From: Chlamydoabsidia padenii
Lineage: Eukaryota > Mucoromycota > Mucoromycetes > Mucorales > Cunninghamellaceae
NCBI GenBank assembly: GCA_025330725.1
Contig: JAIWND010000033.1
Coordinates: 224,225-288,224, forward strand
DNA length: 64,000 nucleotides
Direction of reading: 5' to 3'
Position numbers and translations under genes: made by a program. The notes below the pieces were generated by a model that ran no database searches, was not told the origin of the DNA, and was given only the letters and a program-made list of their open reading frames with translations. Below, piece after piece: positions 3,270 through 19,184 of the stretch (positions within the stretch are counted from its first letter, which is position 1; each line of letters opens with the position of its first letter).

Positions 3270-3948
3270 TTATTCAACATAAGCTCGTTTCATGATTGTA
3301 CTTTCCTTCATTTTAGCATTGATGATCTCTGAATAATACGAAGCGGCAGGACACTTGTTCTTTTTAATACACTGAATGACAATCGCCGCGGCATCTTTAC
3401 CCGAAATCCAACCACCCTGGAAGTACCCATGGTACTCCTTGGACATGGCTTCACCAGCAAAGAAAACCTGATTATGAAGCGGGCTTTCATATTCATATGA
3501 TGTTGATCGACCTCGCTAATCGGCCAGTTTGAGTATGAGCCACGGAAAAGCGGATCAGAGTGCCATCGCGGAAAGATAATGCCAGTAGGTTCAGGCGCAT
3601 TTGCTTCGCCGTACATTTTGCGCAACACCGTCATAAGTTGGTCCATGACTTGCTCGTCCATCATTGCTTCTACCATATGTGCATAATCTTGTGTCACCGT
3701 CACCATAAAAACATTGTCCTTGGTGCCCTGGGGGAAGTAGCATGTTCTGCCACATCGAGAATAAACCCCGACTGGTTGGATTGGCGTACAGCGTGAACCC
3801 GAGGTCTGACCAAAACTGATGTTGAAATTTCAGAAATACTTTTGTGTATGTAGTAAAATGGAACCCAAAGATTACTTCCGCCTTCCAGTCTGGTAGTTCT
3901 GGTTTCCAATCTACATCACGATGTTGAAGCACACCCACCCTTTTCATA
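3270..3948 (-). pseudogene. Polyamine oxidase / flavin amine oxidase, C-terminal relic
   Basis: Minus-strand pieces in successive frames match the C-terminal half of fungal polyamine oxidases: GVLQHRDVDWKPELPDWK (substrate-domain start), FLKFQHQFWSDLGFTLYANP, LRKMYGEANAPEPTGI, RWHSDPLFRGSYSNWPIS, then VFFAGEAMSKEYHGYFQGGW (the FAD-binding FAGEA motif) and ISGKDAAAIVIQCIKKNKCP before a stop at 3270. At least two frame changes are needed, near 3715-3730 and near 3480-3510. The N-terminal Rossmann half with GxGxxG is absent; the homology stops near a poly-A stretch about 90 bp from the left end of the Harbinger element. The intact enzyme would oxidise polyamines, making hydrogen peroxide. This copy cannot. 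Confidence 0.85.
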
Positions 3949-4263
3949 AAAGAAAAAAAAAACAAGTTAGTATTTTTGCTTTTTGGTGTCTGTCTGTCTG
4001 TCTGTCGAGGGTTCAATTATTTACGAGAAGGTGGAGATTGCAAGTCTCACATTTTTTTTTGACCAATAGAATTTGACTAAAATTTTATGATTTTTTTGGG
4101 ACTTTGAATGCCCTCAATGGGTTTTTCACGAAATGTCGGAGTTATCGCAGATGTCGCAGTTGTCGCAGCTGTTGCTAGATTATATTTCCTCAACAAAATG
4201 CGTGTATGTAAAGCTGTTTCGAATGTTAATTAATAAAGCACTATTCCCTTTCTTTCTAAAAAA

Positions 4264-9405: not shown

Positions 9406-9672
9406 CCAGGAAGTGAATTCGCCTTTGGCCGAAAACAAATGCAGTCAATGGCGAGAACAAAACTCGTGTTGCACAAAAAATAAGTTCGTCCTTTTGGAAA
9501 ATGAATTCATGTTGTACCAAAATGTAAATTCGCCTTCGCTGACAAATCGGATGTTCTGTTGCCAAGTGTTTTTGTGGTACGAGGTTTGGTATCTTTGGGT
9601 ATAAGAGCACACCAAGTGTCTGTCCCTGTTTTTTTGTTACTTTTCCACAATTACATCAGAAACTACGTGATA

Positions 9673-10975
9673 ATGAACGTTCAATTTTTGTATGAAAACG
9701 GGCAAGGTTCTGTTGTCGGCGAGCATGGCAGACCTGAACCAATGGATTATATTGTTGATGAGGAGCAGTTTCGTCTTGAAACATTGAGCTCTCATACACA
9801 ATATTTAGCACAACTGCTTTTGGAGAGCGAGAAAGGATTAGAGTCAATGCAGGTGGAAAAAGAGGTGGTAAAGTCTCGTAGGGATGTTGTTATGAGGGAA
9901 GAATCAATGAAACGGAATTATACACGCTATTCTGATCAGGACAAAGTGAGATTCTTCAAGCTTTTGTTTGAGAAGTGTTTAAGCGCGGCTGCTGCTGCAA
10001 AACGTCTTGGGACTCACGTTCGTACAGGGCAAAAATGGGCTGAACAATACGAGAGGGTTCCTGATAGTATCTTTAAGAAAAGGAAAAGGACCGGTCGTCC
10101 GCGCATTCTCAATGAGGAGCACAAAAAAGTTATTCTTGAGTGCATTGATGCAAACCCGTCAGTCGTCTTGTATGACGTGATGAAGTATTTAAGACAAGCA
10201 TTCACAGAATTAAAAATATCCAAAAGCACTTTGTTTGATTTTGTAAAAAAAAACATTGCAATTTGTCTCTCAAAAAAGCTCGGTTTCAACCCATAGACCG
10301 GAACAGTGAGGAAAAGATTCAAGAGCGCCTGAATTGGATTCGTAAATGGGAAAAAATAGACATGGATTTTACGACAAACTGCGTCTTTCTTGATGAATCT
10401 GCATTTCATATTAATTTGAAACGTAGTATGGCATGGTAGGTTCCCCAGAAGTGGTCACGGTTCCCAAAACAAGAGCAAAAACAACAACTATTTTAGGTGC
10501 GATTTCTGCCGAAGGTCTGATAAAATGCAGTCTCAGGCTTCCTTAGCCTCCATCCAATAAAAAGAGAAAGCGAGGAGAAGATGTTGGGCGCGTGAGCAAA
10601 GGAACAGTAACGGGACACTACGTCAGTTTTCTGAAAGCCACGATGGATGAAATGGACCGATACCCGCATATGAAAGGCCATTATCTTGTGATGGATAATG
10701 CTCCAATCCATACTTCGGTTGACATATCAAAATATGTAGAATCTCGCGGGTACCGCTGTATCTACTTGCCATCCTATTCTCCTGAGCTCAATCCATTTGA
10801 ACAGTTTTGGTCAGTGGTTAAGAGTAAAGTAAAAAGGAGTAAGTTCCTGGAAATGGAGACACTGATGACTAGAATCAGTGAGGCTGCTAATAGTTTGCAG
10901 CTGAGCGATTTTAAAGGCTTTGCTTGGCATTCTCATCAATGCTTGGACAAATGCCGTAGTAAACAAGAGCTCTGA
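9673..10975 (+). pseudogene. DD34E transposase, copy 1 (frameshifted)
   Basis: The N-terminal half has an acidic/coiled segment, then a helix-turn-helix pair (KVRFFKLLFEKCLSAAAAAK, RILNEEHKKVILECIDANPS). The catalytic half shows CVFLDESAFH (first Asp), GHYLVMDNAPIH (second Asp) and ELNPFEQFW (Glu), with 34 residues between the second Asp and the Glu. Lesions: the frame must slip by -1 at an A9 run (10245-10253); an 8-nt deletion near 10436 relative to copy 2 creates a stop right after SMAW; and a TAG interrupts LRLP/PPSNKK near 10543. The A9 and TAG lesions are shared with copy 2. The start used is the ATG at 9673; an in-frame ATG at 9559 would add 38 residues of poor quality. Confidence 0.85.
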
Positions 10976-11071
10976 TAAGCACCTTTCATTTCAAATTACA
11001 GATGGTCTTTCTCTGTTTTGTTTCAATAGGCAGATTGCAAAAAAAAAAAAAAAAAAAAAAAGAGACACTTT

Positions 11072-11396
11072 GTTGTTACCTTTCACACTGTTGTTACTAT
11101 CTTTCACACTGTTGTTACCATCTTTCACACTGTTGCTACTACCTTTCACACTGTTGTTACTATTTTTTTACTGTTGTAACCATCTTTCACCATCTTTCAC
11201 GGTTGTTACTATCTTTCACACTGTTGTTACCATCTTTCACACTGTTGTTACTATCTTTCACACTGTTGTAACCATCTTTCACGCTGTTGTTACTATCTTT
11301 TACACAGTTGTTACCATCTTTCACACTGTTGTTACTATCTTTCACGCTGCTGTTACTATCTTTTACACTGTTGTAACCATCTTTCACGCTCGTTGT
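11072..11396. repeat. 21-bp minisatellite at the 3' side of mariner copy 1
   Basis: About 15 units of the consensus GTTGTTACTATCTTTCACACT, with recurring variants (CCATC for CTATC, TTTTAC for TTTCAC, GCTG for ACTG). The period is a multiple of three, so the complementary strand is open as VKDGNNS heptapeptide repeats. The order of variant units in the distal part matches the array of copy 2. Confidence 0.92.
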
Positions 11397-11657: not shown

Positions 11658-12025
11658 ATGGCCATCGGAAAAGTTGTTGTGCAGCGACAACCTTTTGACT
11701 ATCTGAAATATCCTGACACTCCCCCTCATGTATCAATGTCAGTAATGGAAAGCGACGCCAACAATGATACATCCACAATGGAAAGTGGTATGTTTTGGGA
11801 TGATTATTGTATTCCAGCAGAATGTACTGATAGCAGATCTTACACCGCCGTAGCACCTAGTCCACAAAGCTCTTTGGCATCAGATGATAGCGGAATCAGT
11901 ACGTGTAAATGCAAATCTTTAATTTTTAATAACTGTAACGAATTGACGTGCCATCTGGCTTGCCAGCAATCAGACCTGCCAAACACAGCATCTTGGATTT
12001 AATGAAATGTATATTTTCGCGGGAC

Positions 12026-12033
12026 GAACCAAA
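12026..12033. repeat. Left target-site duplicate of the MULE
   Basis: GAACCAAA immediately outside the left end, repeated exactly at 15779-15786 outside the right end. The next base (G) also matches, so the duplication could be read as 8 or 9 bp. Both sizes fit the 8-11 bp usual for Mutator-like elements. Confidence 0.93.
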
Positions 12034-12125
12034 GGGGAGCCGATATTTTGGAGGTACCTCCAAAATTTCGGCTGACTTTGAGGGTACCTCGAAAATCCGC
12101 CAACAAATTGGAGGTACCTTAAAAT
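12034..12125. repeat. Left MULE terminus with GGTACC palindromes
   Basis: Contains a 22-bp perfect palindrome at 12045-12066 centred on GGAGGTACCTCC and two diverged copies at about 12081-12091 and 12110-12120, spaced roughly 30 bp apart. Repeated palindromes in the termini suggest binding sites for a dimeric transposase; that role is inferred. Confidence 0.85.
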
Positions 12126-12273
12126 TTCCTTTTCTGTACTTTCGGCAATCAATAAAATCTTCCTTCATTGTTAATACTACCAAAATTATGGATATATCTT
12201 TATTTTATAATATAATATTCACTAAAATATTGAATAGTTTATATATATGCGAAAAAAAGTAGAACTACTGTTG

Positions 12274-15200
12274 CTATTTTACTTTCAACTTCAAGAAAAG
12301 ACGCTGTTGCTTAATTCTTTTCCTTGGTATTGTAATTTTGCATGAAGAAGAAGGAGGAGAAGAAGGAGAAGGAGAAGGAACGGCAAGAGCAATAGCAGCA
12401 GCAATAGTACCATCATCAGTAGTAGCAGGGACACGGTCAGGATTAGCAGTAGAGGAAGTGGTCGACACTTTCTTATACATCACCATCGCCGTGTTCTTCA
12501 TTCGTCCATCCAATGACTCCATGTTGCATGTTTTTAATTTTTGTGAAAGGTTGTCTACCTTATACACCACGCTATCACCGTCAACATAGTATGACCAGAA
12601 ATGAGCACCAGTCTTGGATGCTGCACATATCCGTCCCATCAGCAAAAAATAGTCATCACCCAAGTGAAAAGAGTTGGGGTAATCAACTGATATATCTTCC
12701 AAAGGATCAGACAAGAAAAGGTAACTGGGTAAGTGATTACTGTCAAAATCTTTCAAAGTTGAATCCATAATCGATTTTTGAACATATTGGCCGAAGGAAG
12801 AGTGAGTAGGATTAACACCAGCATTTAGAAGTACATACGGACCAAGGAAAGATTTTGTTGTCGTTAAACAAATGAAAGGCTGTAGTAAATGATCCTTAGT
12901 ATACAATACACTGCCCCGGATGTTGTCAAGAAGTAAGTGAAGAACATCGCGACAATCACCCATCATACCTTGTGGAACTTTTCCATATTCCCATACAAAA
13001 GATCTGGCAACAGACAAGGCTTGGGCAAAGTTATTGTTTTTTGTGTGCTGTTTAAGTAGCCTAAAGAAGTCATTGATAACGTTATCCTTGCAGGTGTTGG
13101 TGCCAAATACGATGGATGGGAGGATGATCCGGTTAATGAGCTCCATAATGCAATCGATGAAGCATGAATTGCTTTGGTTCGGCAGTAACTTATCATCATC
13201 ATCATAATTTTTCGCAGAGGAGGAAGTGCTAACCAGAGACCATTTCGAAAAACTAAAGATGGTGTAAGGAACGAGGGATAAAGAAAGAGAAATGAAAAAA
13301 AAAAATCATATTAGTATGGCAGTGAACGTCGGGTAATTTAATAAGACTTACTTTTCCTTAACTACTTCGCCTTCGATCACCTCTGGGGACTCATCATCGC
13401 TTACCATGATAATGGATTTTTCTTCTAATAAATGATAGTTTATCAGTGTACATGCCTATTTTGTGAAATTGTCTGTCATTTTACCTGATTCATGCAAGTC
13501 ATCTGGCTTACCGTCGTTAAAGTACTTGGGTTTCTTGACTATTTTTCTTTTCTTTTCTGATTTTTTTTCCTGCTTTTCTTCTTTCATTTTTTCTTCATCT
13601 GCTTTTTTTCTTTTTTTGGTATTGACTTTATTTGGTGTTCTAGTCCCATAATACAGCGGATAGCCTTTGAAGTAGTGTTCGATGCCTTGTTTATCGTCTT
13701 CTATGATGTTAAGTAGAAACTATCAAGCAATACTTTTTTAATACTCGTTATGTTTTCCCAAATTATTTTGAGTTTTTTTTACCTCCACGTTGACCACAAT
13801 ACTTTGGCGTTTTTCCATGTTCTGGTATAAAAGATTATGAAAGCTTTCGATACCATTTGTCGTATTGGTAGGATGGTTCATGAGATTGCGAGTCATCTTC
13901 GATACAGAAGGAAAAATCATTGAACGAACATTCTTGGCCATCCAGAAAGAAAGCCAATTTTTTGTTTTTGGATATTTTTTGGATATTTTTTTTTAATGTC
14001 TTTAAGAGCTTGTTTTGTTGGTGCCTTGGTGAGCTTGTATATCAATTTTTTTAACTCCTGTTGCCGCTTTTTCACTAGCTTTCTTTTCTCGTCCTTGTTG
14101 ATTACTTCTCCTGGCAATGGAAGGACTATATCCGAGCGTTGGACCAATTTGCTGACAGAACCTTGGAAGTGACCATAACAGCCTTTCAAAAACTTCAAGG
14201 CGTTTCGGGACTTGTCTTTTGTTTTTGCAACATACGCTTCGCGGAACCCTTTTAATTGTGCGGCCGAAAAATCCATCACCATGCCCAAAAAGCTTTTATC
14301 ATTAAAGTTGATGTTATAGGCGTCAAAAAAATCAACAAAATAACGCTTGAATGTTGCCGTATCACAGTTGCGGATGACAGCAGCATACAGAAGAGCATGA
14401 CGACCCAATTGCCTGCAATATATAACGGAAGAGCAAAAATAGTAATCCTGGAAAACCTTGAAAGTTACATCCGTGAGAACAGGATATCCTTTAAAATCCA
14501 CCACTGAATCCAAAGAGTTTGATTTGATTGAAATAATAAAATTTTGAACATGAATATCGCATAATCTAAACATGTTTTCATTTTCCATCTGGAGAGCCAA
14601 AATATCTTCAATTGAAGTAGTCAGTGAGCGGCGAAGACCATGTGCTTTTGCAATCTTGTTTCGTTCGTATCGTGTTCTGTCAATGTTTTGCAAAGTGGGG
14701 TGAATCAATCGAACGGGTTTGATCGCTCCAGGTCCAGCAGGGGTGCCCTGTACAAGCTTTTTCGCTGTTGTTGATGGGTGTAACAGTACCAGATTTTCTA
14801 ACTCTTCTGCACATTCTGGAGGTAAATGAATCGCACGATAGGTTGCATGTGTGTGCTCGGGAGCTTCTTCCAAATTGGTTGAAAACATGCGGCATGTATC
14901 ATTTTTGAATAAAAAGTTTATTTTCACACTGCATGAGATATGAATTAACTCTTTATGACAACCATTACAGCCTGTTATTTTACATTGTTTTTCCAATGAA
15001 TTTTTTGTCGTAAGAGGTCTTTGATCCAAAAGGTGAAGGTCACACTTTTCGTTCATGCAACGAACTGAGCCAAGGCAGGACTTCGACACATTTTTTTGAC
15101 CACCAGATCTAAGGTAACCGCTGTTTTGGCGCTTCATGGCCCAGCCAATGTTGATAATTTTAGGGTTGATGCGGCCACCATCAAACGGAGCAGATATTGT

Positions 15201-15371
15201 GACATCAGCGTCAGCAGGAGGAAATTGAGGAAAGCTGGTAGGTAATGCAGACATTCCAATTGTGTTTTGAAGTAAAAGCAAAGGAAAGTTTTTTTTTCTT
15301 TTCTTTAAATGATAGGGTTGTTGTATTCCCAGTTTTTCCCAAGAGACTCTACACCGCTCTCCCAGATCCAC
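12274..15371 (-). CDS. MULE transposase fused to a USP-like (C19) protease domain
   Basis: Exons (high to low): 15371-13783, 13719-13485, 13424-13352, 13252-12274, all introns GT..AG. The summed exons are one base short of a full frame: a -1 shift (or one missing A) at the A9 run 13986-13994 gives 958 residues. Domain order: a Cys/His zinc-binding region (SCLGSVRCMNEKCDL, TGCNGCHKELIHISC, HTH) like the WRKY/GCM1-type fingers of MULEs; the DDE core with Asp in YPVLTDVTFKVF, Asp in FLGMVMDFSAAQLKGF and Glu in TTNGIESFHNLLY; a Lys-rich linker; then a ubiquitin-specific-protease-like domain with a Cys box (QSNSCFIDCIMELI), the QGMMGDCRDVLHLLLDNI segment (USP helix), and a His box (GAHFWSYYVDGD) ending in NTAMVMYKKV. 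A more internal start, ATG at 15253, is possible. The protease could cleave ubiquitin-like modifiers; activity is untested. Confidence 0.85.
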
Positions 15372-15650
15372 GATTAGATTTGATTCACATCTGTTTTTTT
15401 TTTTTTTTCAGAATGTAAATCAATTTATTTCAACGACAGGAAAACAGAACTATCATCTATGACCAAGAACTCACAACTACTGCTTATCAGTCCTGTTCAG
15501 CACCAACTATGGATTCACATCTAGCTGTCAGATCTTGGGATTATGTATATCCTTTTTATTTATTTAGTAGAAAACATCTTTATATTGTATCACTATAAAA
15601 GACAGGAATAAATTGGTTTTTATTAAAGAAAGGTACTCCATAACATAGTT

Positions 15651-15778
15651 GGGAAATCGGAGGTACCTCCAATTTCACTTTTACAAATTTGGAGGTACCT
15701 CCGATTTCCCGCGAACTTTGAAGGTACCTCCACTTGCCTTATATGGAACTGGAGGTACCTCCAAAATACCAACTCCCC
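15651..15778. repeat. Right MULE terminus with GGTACC palindromes
   Basis: Four GGTACC-centred palindromes in 104 bp. The first two lie within a larger near-perfect inverted repeat: GGGAAATCGGAGGTACCTCC starting at 15651 faces GGAGGTACCTCCGATTTCCC ending at 15710. Confidence 0.88.
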
Positions 15779-15786
15779 GAACCAAA
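15779..15786. repeat. Right target-site duplicate of the MULE
   Basis: GAACCAAA, identical to 12026-12033. The exon of the interrupted gene resumes in frame directly after it. Confidence 0.93.
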
Positions 15787-16750
15787 GCACAACAAAGAAC
15801 GATATGAATTCCATTATTTGTCACAGCAAGCCCTATTTGATTTACTGAAAGATTACATACCAAATATCAGCAGTTATTGCACAGCAAGAAAGGTGAACGA
15901 CTGGATATCCAAAGAATGCATTTTGCATCGTACTAAGAACATACGGCAAGGTCATATGGTATTGAAAGCAAGACCTGCATGGATATTGAAGCAAGAATTT
16001 CGAGGTATGATTTGGAAATTCACGTTGAATGGAAAATTTTGCTTACCTTTTTGTGTGTGTCCATGCGTGTATGTATGTTAGAAAATGAAATTGAAACTGT
16101 ATTCAATCGCCTTGCGTTTAAACAGACAGTGCGCAACATTCCTGGTTGGACGACAATAGGCTACGCTCGAAAATCAATTTCTAATGAATCTACGAAAAAA
16201 CGTACAGCCCTTTTACAGACAATGATTGAAAATCTGCATATCAACGATCTCTGCGAAAAAGTTTACGTATCGCCTATGTGTTCTGCAAATTCAGAATTGA
16301 TGAGACGAGATTACCATAGAACAGCTTCCACAACCACCGTTTTGCAACAACTACGATTTCATGACGGAGATATGCAAGGTAAGAAAAAATGTTCAAAATA
16401 GTGTATCGTGTATCGTGACTTATATTGTACGTATCGTTTTTTCATTCAATAGATTTCATTGTATTTGCAAAAACTACTACAATGAACATTCGTCTGGTAG
16501 TTTTGGATTACGCGGGATTAACGACAAAACCAGATGATCTTCGCAAATTTGTGAAGTAAGAAAAATAATTAATTGATAAATGATTTGTTCTTATTTTTTT
16601 TTTTATAGAAGCATCAAATCCATCAAAGAGATTGTTGTGGACAAGGGACACAAACTGGAGTGCTTCACTCGGCACAAACTATTGACTTCTGACGACATAC
16701 AAAAATTTAACTGCAGAACAGCTAATGTGAAACGGTCGGCATTATGTTGA

Positions 16751-17181
16751 CCAGTTTTTTTATTTCCATTACTTGATATCTAGTAAAAGCAATAAAAAAA
16801 ATATCGTCTTTACTTGGTTATGAGTCTGGTTATTTTTTGTTAATTTCGTTTCTGTTAATTTATATGGCCACGTTTAACAATGGCTGGTATAGTCGAAAGG
16901 ACTACGAGATTTAACAATAATGGTTTATTCCAATATTAAAAAATCGAGGAAGAAAAGAAATATGGAATTACGTAGTGGAATCCAAAAAAGAAATAAGAGT
17001 TCAGGTACAACACAGGGTGTTGTGAGACCAAAAAGTCTTTTTGCTAAAATGTATGTTTTAACGCAGCTGTGTATCTCAAACAGTGCCAAAATTGACAACT
17101 GGTATGATATTTTTTATAGTGTTGTACAGAAGATTTGAAAATTGGCGCGAGAGCATGAATGGTGAACGATGCAACACACAG
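16751..17181. other. Intergenic between interrupted gene and mariner copy 2
   Basis: AT-rich. A 72-codon plus-strand frame (16920-17138) begins with a Lys/Arg-rich stretch but has no recognisable domain and is not supported as a gene. Confidence 0.4.
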
Positions 17182-17524
17182 CATGAAAGATGACAACAAC
17201 AGTGTGAAAGATGGTAACAACAGTGTGAAAGATGGTAACAACAGTGTAAAAGATGGTAACAACAGTGTGAAAGATGGTAACAACAGTGTAAAAGATGGTA
17301 ACAACAGCGTGAAAGATAGTAACAACAGTGTGAAAGTTAGTGAAAGATGGTAACAACAGTGTAAAAGATAGTAACAGCAGCGTGAAAGATAGTAACAACA
17401 GTGTGAAAGATGGTAACAACTGTGTAAAAGATAGTAACAACAGCGTGAAAGATGGTTACAACAGTGTGAAAGATAGTAACAACAGTGTGAAAGATGGTAA
17501 CAACAGTGTGAAAGGTAACAACAA
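17182..17524. repeat. 21-bp minisatellite at the 3' side of mariner copy 2
   Basis: About 16 units; on the plus strand the unit reads GTGAAAGATGGTAACAACA, a period of 21 bp, open as VKDGNNS repeats. About seven consecutive variant units occur in the same order as in the copy 1 array. Extra units occur at opposite ends of the two arrays, so both have expanded independently since the copies separated. Confidence 0.92.
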
Positions 17525-17607
17525 AGTGTCTCTTTTTTTTTTTTGTAATCTGCTTATTGAAACAAAACAGAGAAAGACCATCTGTAATTTGAAATGAAAG
17601 GTGCTTA

Positions 17608-18919
17608 TCAGAGCTCTTGTTTACTACGGCATTTATCCAAGCATTGATGAGAATGCCAAGCAAAGCCTTTAAAATCGCTCAGCTGCAAACTATTAGCAGC
17701 CTCACTGATTCTAGTCATCAGTGTCTCCGTTTCCAGGAACTTACTCCTTTTTACTTTACTCTTAACCACTGACCAAAACTGTTCAATTGGATTGAGCTCA
17801 GGAAAATAGGATGGCAAGTAGATACAGCGGTACCCGCGAGATTCTACATATTTTGATATGTCAACCGAAGTATGGATTGGAGCATTATCCATCACAAGAT
17901 AATGGCCTTTCATATGCGGGTATCGGTCCATTTCATCCATCGTGGCTTTCAGAAAACTGACGTAGTGTCCCGTTACTGTTCCTTTGCTCACGCGCCCAAC
18001 ATCTTCTCCTCGCTTTCTCTTTTTATTGGATGGAGGCTAAGGAAGCCTGAGACTGCATTTTATCAGACCTTCGGCAGAAATCGCACCTAAAATAGTTGTT
18101 GTTTTTGCTCTTGTTTTGGGAACCGTGACCACTGCTGGGGAACCTTTCTTCGACCATGCCATACTACGTTTCAAATTAATATGAAATGCAGATTCATCAA
18201 GAAAGACGCAGTTTGTCGTAAAATCCATGTCTATTTTTTCCCATTTACGAATCCAATTCAGGCGCTCTTGAATCTTTTCCTCACTGTTCCGGTCTATGGG
18301 TTGAAACCGAGCTTTTTTGAGAGACAAATTGCAATGTTTTTTTTTACAAAATCAAACAAAGTGCTTTTGGATATTTTTAATTCTGTGAATGCTTGTCTTA
18401 AATACTTCATCACGTCATACAAGACGACTGACGGGTTTGCATCAATGCACTCAAGAATAACTTTTTTGTGCTCCTCATTGAGAATGCGCGGACGACCGGT
18501 CCTTTTCCTTTTCTTAAAGATACTATCAGGAACCCTCTCGTATTGTTCAGCCCATTTTTGCCCTGTACGAACGTGAGTCCCAAGACGTTTTGCAGCAGCA
18601 GCCGCGCTTAAACACTTCTCAAACAAAAGCTTGAAGAATCTCACTTTGTCCTGATCAGAATAGCGTGTATAATTCCGTTTCATTGATTCTTCCCTCATAA
18701 CAACATCCCTACGAGACTTTACCACCTCTTTTTCCACCTGCATTGACTCTAATCCTTTCTCGCTCTCCAAAAGCAGTTGTGCTAAATATTGTGTATGAGA
18801 GCTCAATGTTTCAAGACGAAACTGCTCCTCATCAACAATATAATCCATTGGTTCAGGTCTGCCATGCTCGCCGACAACAGAACCTTGCCCGTTTTCATAC
18901 AAAAATTGAACGTTCATTA
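17608..18919 (-). pseudogene. DD34E transposase, copy 2 (less damaged)
   Basis: Same protein as copy 1: N-terminal helix-turn-helix part (18919 down to about 18345), A9 run where a -1 shift is required, then KKARFQPIDRNSEEKIQERL, CVFLDESAFH, SMAWSKKGSPAVVTVPKTR, a TAG just after SLRLP (about 18038), and SKGTVTGHYVSFLKATMDEM, MDNAPIH, ELNPIEQFW to the stop at 17608. It carries the A9 shift and the TAG like copy 1 but lacks the 8-nt deletion. The C-terminal Glu context is NPIEQFW here and NPFEQFW in copy 1. Confidence 0.85.
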
Positions 18920-19184
18920 TCACGTAGTTTCTGATGTAATTGTGGAAAAGTAACAAAAAAACAGGGACAGACACTTGGTGTGCTCTTATACCCAAAGATA
19001 CCAAACCTCGTACCACAAAAACACTTGGCAACAGAACATCCGATTTGTCAGCGAAGGCGAATTTACATTTTGGTACAACATGAATTCATTTTCCAAAAGG
19101 ACGAACTTATTTTTTGTGCAACACGAGTTTTGTTCTCGCCATTGACTGCATTTGTTTTCGGCCAAAGGCGAATTTACTTCCTGG

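Follow-up and report, generated by a model that had tools for sequence, protein, structure and literature searches.

A Mutator-like transposon of Chlamydoabsidia padenii with a transposase probably joined to a USP-clan-like cysteine peptidase domain

A MULE-like element with a four-exon gene

We analysed a 64,000-nucleotide stretch of the Mucorales mould Chlamydoabsidia padenii (contig JAIWND010000033.1, positions 224,225 to 288,224; host assembly of 34.2 Mb in 95 contigs), hereafter called the window. It contains a DNA transposon of 3,743 bp (12035-15777). We interpret it, with reasonable rather than high confidence, as a cut-and-paste element of the Mutator-like element (MULE) superfamily, nearest to the MuDRF elements, whose single spliced gene would encode a transposase with a C-terminal cysteine peptidase of the ubiquitin-specific protease (USP) clan. 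A preliminary description of this gene did not include the whole element with its terminal repeats and perfect 10-bp target site duplication (Table 1).

The sequence GGAGGTACCTCC is repeated close to both ends of the element; at the right end it starts at 15659, 15691 and 15751, with a variant at 15720. Besides the window copy, six close copies were found, one of which (L035) lacks its right end. The target site duplication is 10 bp long in the window copy, L032 and L036 and 9 bp long in L031 and L033, and none was seen at L034 or at the truncated L035. Terminal inverted repeats with duplications of 8-11 bp are a hallmark of MULEs. An exact 19-bp terminal core occurred 15 times in the genome and 0 times in the control. 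The seven copies account for fourteen of these occurrences, including two that overlap at the single remaining end of L035, and the fifteenth lies at a fragment (C43:29897). Beyond this fragment, the exact core revealed no short derivatives, a search that diverged ends would escape. Because the window copy and L031 are 99.9% identical across 3.7 kb, their comparison points to recent movement of the element.

The gene lies on the minus strand (15254-12274) and has four exons. Its introns (13720-13782, 13425-13484 and 13253-13351), correctly placed in the preliminary description, all start with GT and end with AG. An uninterrupted spliced frame of 919 amino acids is found in four of the seven copies compared (L031-L034), and the frame is broken in the window copy, L035 and L036. 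The four-exon gene proposed earlier is as described, but a defect of the window copy had gone unnoticed: exon 1 changes frame after the second Asp of the DDE triad and before its Glu, and the frame stops after 445 codons.

We infer that the exons are joined into one fusion transcript. Alternatively, exons 1-2 could encode the transposase and a second transcript a stand-alone peptidase. Exon joining is predicted from the sequence, L031-L034 have an in-frame ATG inside intron 3, ahead of the frame of exon 4, and a protein database search with the domain alignment returned four proteins, all from Chlamydoabsidia padenii, which correspond to the domain of a second MULE type (see below) without a transposase. 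However, in a copy of this second type (L048) a GRP linker, taken as the MULE C-terminus, runs directly into the domain in a single uninterrupted frame. Separate genes are moreover disfavoured because the exon-3 borders recur across divergent copies and because the exon-4 frame of the window copy has its first in-frame Met only after the catalytic-type Cys. We consider two separate proteins very improbable.

Table 1 Features of the element in the window
Feature	Position	Strand	Remarks
Target site duplication, left copy CGAACCAAAG	12025..12034	.	10 bp, same letters as 15778-15787
Left terminal inverted repeat with GGAGGTACCTCC	12035..12062	.	25 of 28 bases as at the right end, counted by hand
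Exon 4	12274..13252	-	USP-clan-like cysteine peptidase domain and Ser/Pro-rich tail with basic end
Putative-triad Asp (VDN)	12553..12555	-	8 of 8 covering rows
Putative-triad His (GxHF)	12601..12603	-	10 of 10 covering rows
Helix box MGDCRDVLHLLLDN	12922..12963	-	aligns with USP7 stretch QHDVQELCRVLLDN
Cys box PNQSNSCFIDC	13150..13182	-	Cys 13162-13164; Asn 13177-13179, five residues earlier
Exon 3	13352..13424	-	residues IIMVSDDE (13390-13413), SUMO-interaction-motif-like
Exon 2	13485..13719	-	end of transposase region and Lys/Arg-rich linker (KKPKYFNDG)
Exon 1	13783..15254	-	GCM-like Cys/His finger and MULE-like DDE core; frameshifted in window copy
DDE Glu (NGIESFH)	13846..13848	-	out of frame with start in window copy
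C-x2-H motif (GCYGHF), after second Asp	14169..14180	-	alignment
DDE second Asp (VMDFSAAQ)	14271..14273	-	alignment
DDE first Asp (TDVTF)	14469..14471	-	alignment; Glu in decayed locus C70:11408
GCM-like Cys/His finger, N-terminal	14880..15146	-	approximate borders, via relative P0005
Right end	15659..15777	.	terminal inverted repeat 15750-15777 and subterminal GGAGGTACCTCC
Target site duplication, right copy	15778..15787	.	10 bp

The C-terminal domain has the motifs and probably the fold of the USP clan

The three motifs named earlier as Cys box, USP helix and His box (NSCFIDCIMELI, QGMMGDCRDVLHLLLDNI and GAHFWSYYVDGD) are present in the window, and the Cys, His, Asp and Asn codons read as given in Table 1. 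Together with an acidic third residue they follow in the order of the USP clan, in a register that agrees with USP7. The Cys is present in 10 of 11 covering alignment rows, the exception being an Arg in the decayed copy L039 (SRFIDC). An Asn shortly before the Cys is an oxyanion-type residue in the USP clan; it stands at -5 in copies of family 1, the transposase family of the window copy, but not in the second MULE type.

Structure prediction of the domain, proposed as a check in the preliminary description, gave a model that suggests a USP-clan fold, at a predicted local distance difference test score (pLDDT) of 56. The best structural match was the SUMO protease USPL1 (C98), its Z score tied with those of several USPs. 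Taking together the predicted fold, the USP7 motif register, the exon borders and the recurrence described below, we consider it probable that the MULE-like transposase is followed by a USP-clan fold. The narrower assignment to the ubiquitin-specific C19 family was not established, since USPL1 is the top match and the Pfam profile PF00443 (USP/UCH) matched neither the domain nor its loci. Because PF00443 does match many other loci of this genome, recent capture of a host USP is also disfavoured. Pfam searches of the domain gave no match over the cut-off with PF15499 (C98) and none with PF02902 (Ulp1) or PF02338 (OTU), both of which have hits elsewhere in the genome. Sequence searches of the PDB returned nothing or weak unrelated rows, a protein database search with residues 590-870 scored 0 of 942 candidates, and the viral and prokaryote contigs searched held no relative.

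The domain could nevertheless be a true USP-fold deubiquitinase (C19-like) that shields the transposase from the proteasome, the hints of SUMO being accidental. We regard this as a real possibility, although short of even chances: besides the missing PF00443 match, the family-1 Cys box (C-[FY]-x-D-C) resembles CWLDC of USPL1 and not CYMNS of USP7, and the spacing from His to Asp equals that of USPL1 (16) and not that of USP7 (17). A catalytically dead USP fold, acting as a ubiquitin/SUMO-binding or dimerisation module, appears improbable. Catalysis is a prediction, the triad geometry would depend on a pLDDT-56 model, and the second MULE type has no Asn at -5, but the Cys, His and Asp are kept in all covering rows apart from the Cys of decayed L039.

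Elsewhere in the genome, ILPFCWLDCLLMWLVPVNEL at L052 (C89:193550-194050) resembles the USPL1 Cys box, with a PF15499 match under the cut-off (E 0.0085); this locus is a possible host C98-like gene.

The preceding exon encodes a SUMO-interaction-like motif

The splice borders of exon 3 were read by eye in eight copies. The exon encodes SIIMVSDDESPEV in L031, KIIVLSDTETDD in L037 and L044, AT[IV]LSDIEGSSDD in L041 and L043, PIILSDSEISSD in L042, PIILSDSEISS in L038 and FVISSDSEISSD in L046. We take this peptide to resemble a SUMO-interaction motif; the motifs were chosen by eye out of three frames. Because the fold is best matched by USPL1 and this motif lies one exon earlier, SUMO is slightly favoured over ubiquitin as the putative substrate. 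A broader and rather unlikely proposal, put forward tentatively, is that a USPL1-like SUMO isopeptidase has gone unrecognised in two or more MULE lineages of this one mould, preceded in the GCM type by an exon-encoded SUMO-interaction motif.

The transposase resembles MULE transposases of the MuDRF type

The core residues of L031 (D262, D328, C359, H362 and E470) are kept in all covering rows, with D262 of one decayed locus as the sole exception (Table 1). The alignment comprised ten rows, some of them partial, and the L033 and L049 rows represent the same locus. As in MULEs, the C-x2-H motif stands between the second Asp and the Glu of the DDE core. Residues 1-560 had a sole database match, P0005 (507 amino acids, JGI source; 43% identity), which scored E 4.7e-5 and 23.8 bits against Pfam GCM, under the cut-off of 25. 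The window copy itself did not match Pfam GCM, and a GCM profile search was uninformative, giving no match in this genome or in the control genomes. WRKY-GCM1 fingers are reportedly the subject of Babu et al. 2006.

Three results weigh against our interpretation of the element. Pfam MULE (PF10551) did not match the family-1 proteins scanned. Alignment of the transposase with MULEs of the same genome by hhalign gave no usable match in a first run and a weak one in a second, where only the stretch around C-x2-H aligned. In a shuffle test, the values for a SUMO-interaction-like motif per exon were 0.40, 0.11, 0.13, 0.10 and 0.27, none of them significant. The structure model of the transposase was unusable (pLDDT 38), and a fold search, meaningless with such a model, returned no RNase H chain.

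The first two results would suit a transposase of another DDE superfamily with 9-10-bp target site duplications. Against this reading, to which we give little credence, D-x-T-F, D-x3-A, C-x2-H and E follow in the MULE order together with duplications of MULE length, the finger is GCM-like as in MuDRF, and the same C-terminal domain is found behind a Pfam-recognised MULE. The MULE DDE core of the preliminary description, and with it the assignment of family 1 to the MULEs, is supported by motif order, target site duplication and MuDRF resemblance, but not by profile.

The pairing recurs in the genome and in a second MULE type

Grouping 38 transposase matches by hand gave 20 loci, counts which are lower bounds. 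The domain lies downstream on the same strand at no fewer than 18 of these 20 loci, more than chance would give; the preliminary description had named conserved Cys and His and fused copies in several genomes as support, and within this one genome the order recurs and the Cys and His are largely conserved. The two loci without the domain (C55:66882 and C36:136939) are degenerate pieces. At C70:5937-12868 a family-1 element is nested in an older one of its own kind, and it separates the transposase of the latter (C70:11408) from its USP-like domain.

The second MULE type (L048, L050) is recognised by Pfam MULE in L048 (E 3.7e-8), with a SWIM finger at 15.7 bits, under the threshold of 19.6. Its domain shares 26% identity with that of the window copy. 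Matches closer to this type lie on at least C43, C91, C70, C41 and C5, with one more distant on C2.

Between family-1 subfamilies the proportion of synonymous differences (pS) was 0.71-0.91, near saturation, and that of nonsynonymous differences (pN) was 0.34-0.45 for the domain and 0.24-0.32 for the transposase; pN against the distant L048 was 0.36-0.50. Closer pairs had ratios of 0.35-1.1, as expected for decaying copies, and four pairs of fewer than 60 codons were excluded from the pN/pS analysis. Because synonymous sites are near saturation and pN is lower, selection seems to have acted on both domain and transposase during the active period of the lineages.

Several neighbouring arrangements were seen. 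An IS1595/ISXO2-like transposase (Pfam E 3.4e-17) lies inside the second-type MULE (L048 3525-4403). L039 holds a Pfam-MULE frame (3325-4044) that belongs to a different multi-copy family; some 1.4 kb further on comes a USP-like domain of the L037 subfamily, the two being either neighbours or parts of a hybrid. Genome-wide there were three Ulp1 and two OTU hits. A Pfam-MULE hit (C55:2255) is followed after 3.4 kb, on the same strand, by one of the Ulp1 hits (C48; C55:5913; the pair spans C55:2255-6497), and a MULE with Ulp1 may thus also be present in this genome; no MULE match was found within 20 kb of the remaining Ulp1/OTU hits. In the window the MULE lies between two copies of a DDE_3-type (Tc1/IS630-like) element (9406-11050 and 17533-19184; left copy Pfam E 3.3e-20), which are inverted relative to each other, 99-100% identical and separated by about 6.5 kb. 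Mutually inverted short-period repeat arrays (about 11200-11390 and 17160-17524) adjoin both.

A possible role for the tethered peptidase

In the proposed mechanism, the finger would bind the GGAGGTACCTCC-rich ends and the DDE core would do the cutting. The tethered peptidase might act on its own transposase, or on proteins present where the DNA is cut, and strip them of ubiquitin or SUMO; removal of the tag could stabilise the complex or release SUMO-linked silencing or repair proteins. Should the rather unlikely USPL1-like proposal hold, Mutator-like transposons would have recruited a ubiquitin/SUMO peptidase fold for a third time, after Ulp1 and OTU, and the protein would be a self-contained module that binds SUMO and strips it where transposition takes place. 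If one superfamily has captured different deubiquitinase or deSUMOylase folds more than once, this would suggest a common requirement for ubiquitin/SUMO editing in transposition or silencing, an idea open to direct testing with the apparently intact copies of this mould, which moved recently. A divergent USP-clan family beyond Pfam recognition would also be added.

Comparison with known systems

MuDRF elements of Puccinia, other Basidiomycota and Naegleria belong to the MuDR branch and have a GCM finger (PMC3164196). They combine a MuDR-superfamily DDE transposase with a GCM-type finger in one protein, an arrangement that the MULE-like core and putative GCM-like finger of the present element would match. 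Their target site duplication is 9 bp and the available text describes GCM and DDE only, with no mention of a peptidase, whereas duplications of 9-10 bp and a USP-like domain are found here (PMC3164196). MULE-Mucorales likewise has a Mucoromycota host, a 10-bp duplication and a SWIM finger, the last hinted at in our second MULE type; the survey table gives no further motif for it (PMC6446971).

USPL1 (C98; PDB 7p99, 7zju, 7zjv) is the best VIA-align match of the domain and has in common with it the CxxDC Cys box, the GDC helix box and the HF...D spacing of 16. It differs in having no sequence-level match to the domain and in its CxxC pairs, which are absent from the window domain as judged by eye. 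The Trichomonas vaginalis protein XP_001314237.1 also combines a transposase with a C19-type domain, but its transposase belongs to the transposase_11 superfamily and not to the MULEs, as far as the source text goes (PMC2836005). The literature searched, a coverage largely outside subscription journals, names no MULE that carries a USP or C19 domain.

As the preliminary description stated, MULEs with Ulp1 or OTU are already known in print: Ulp1 (C48) and OTU domains are reported in MULEs, Ginger and Helitrons, with Ulp1 or OTU in Ginger1 transposons (PMC2836005). The hydra element MuDR-6_HM has an OTU domain, and the MULE survey gives no USP in its available part (PMC6446971). These MULE and Ginger1 elements, in the portions of the reports available, resemble ours in bearing a C-terminal cysteine peptidase of the ubiquitin/SUMO type on a DDE transposase; the peptidase is C48 or OTU there and, by prediction, of the USP clan here.
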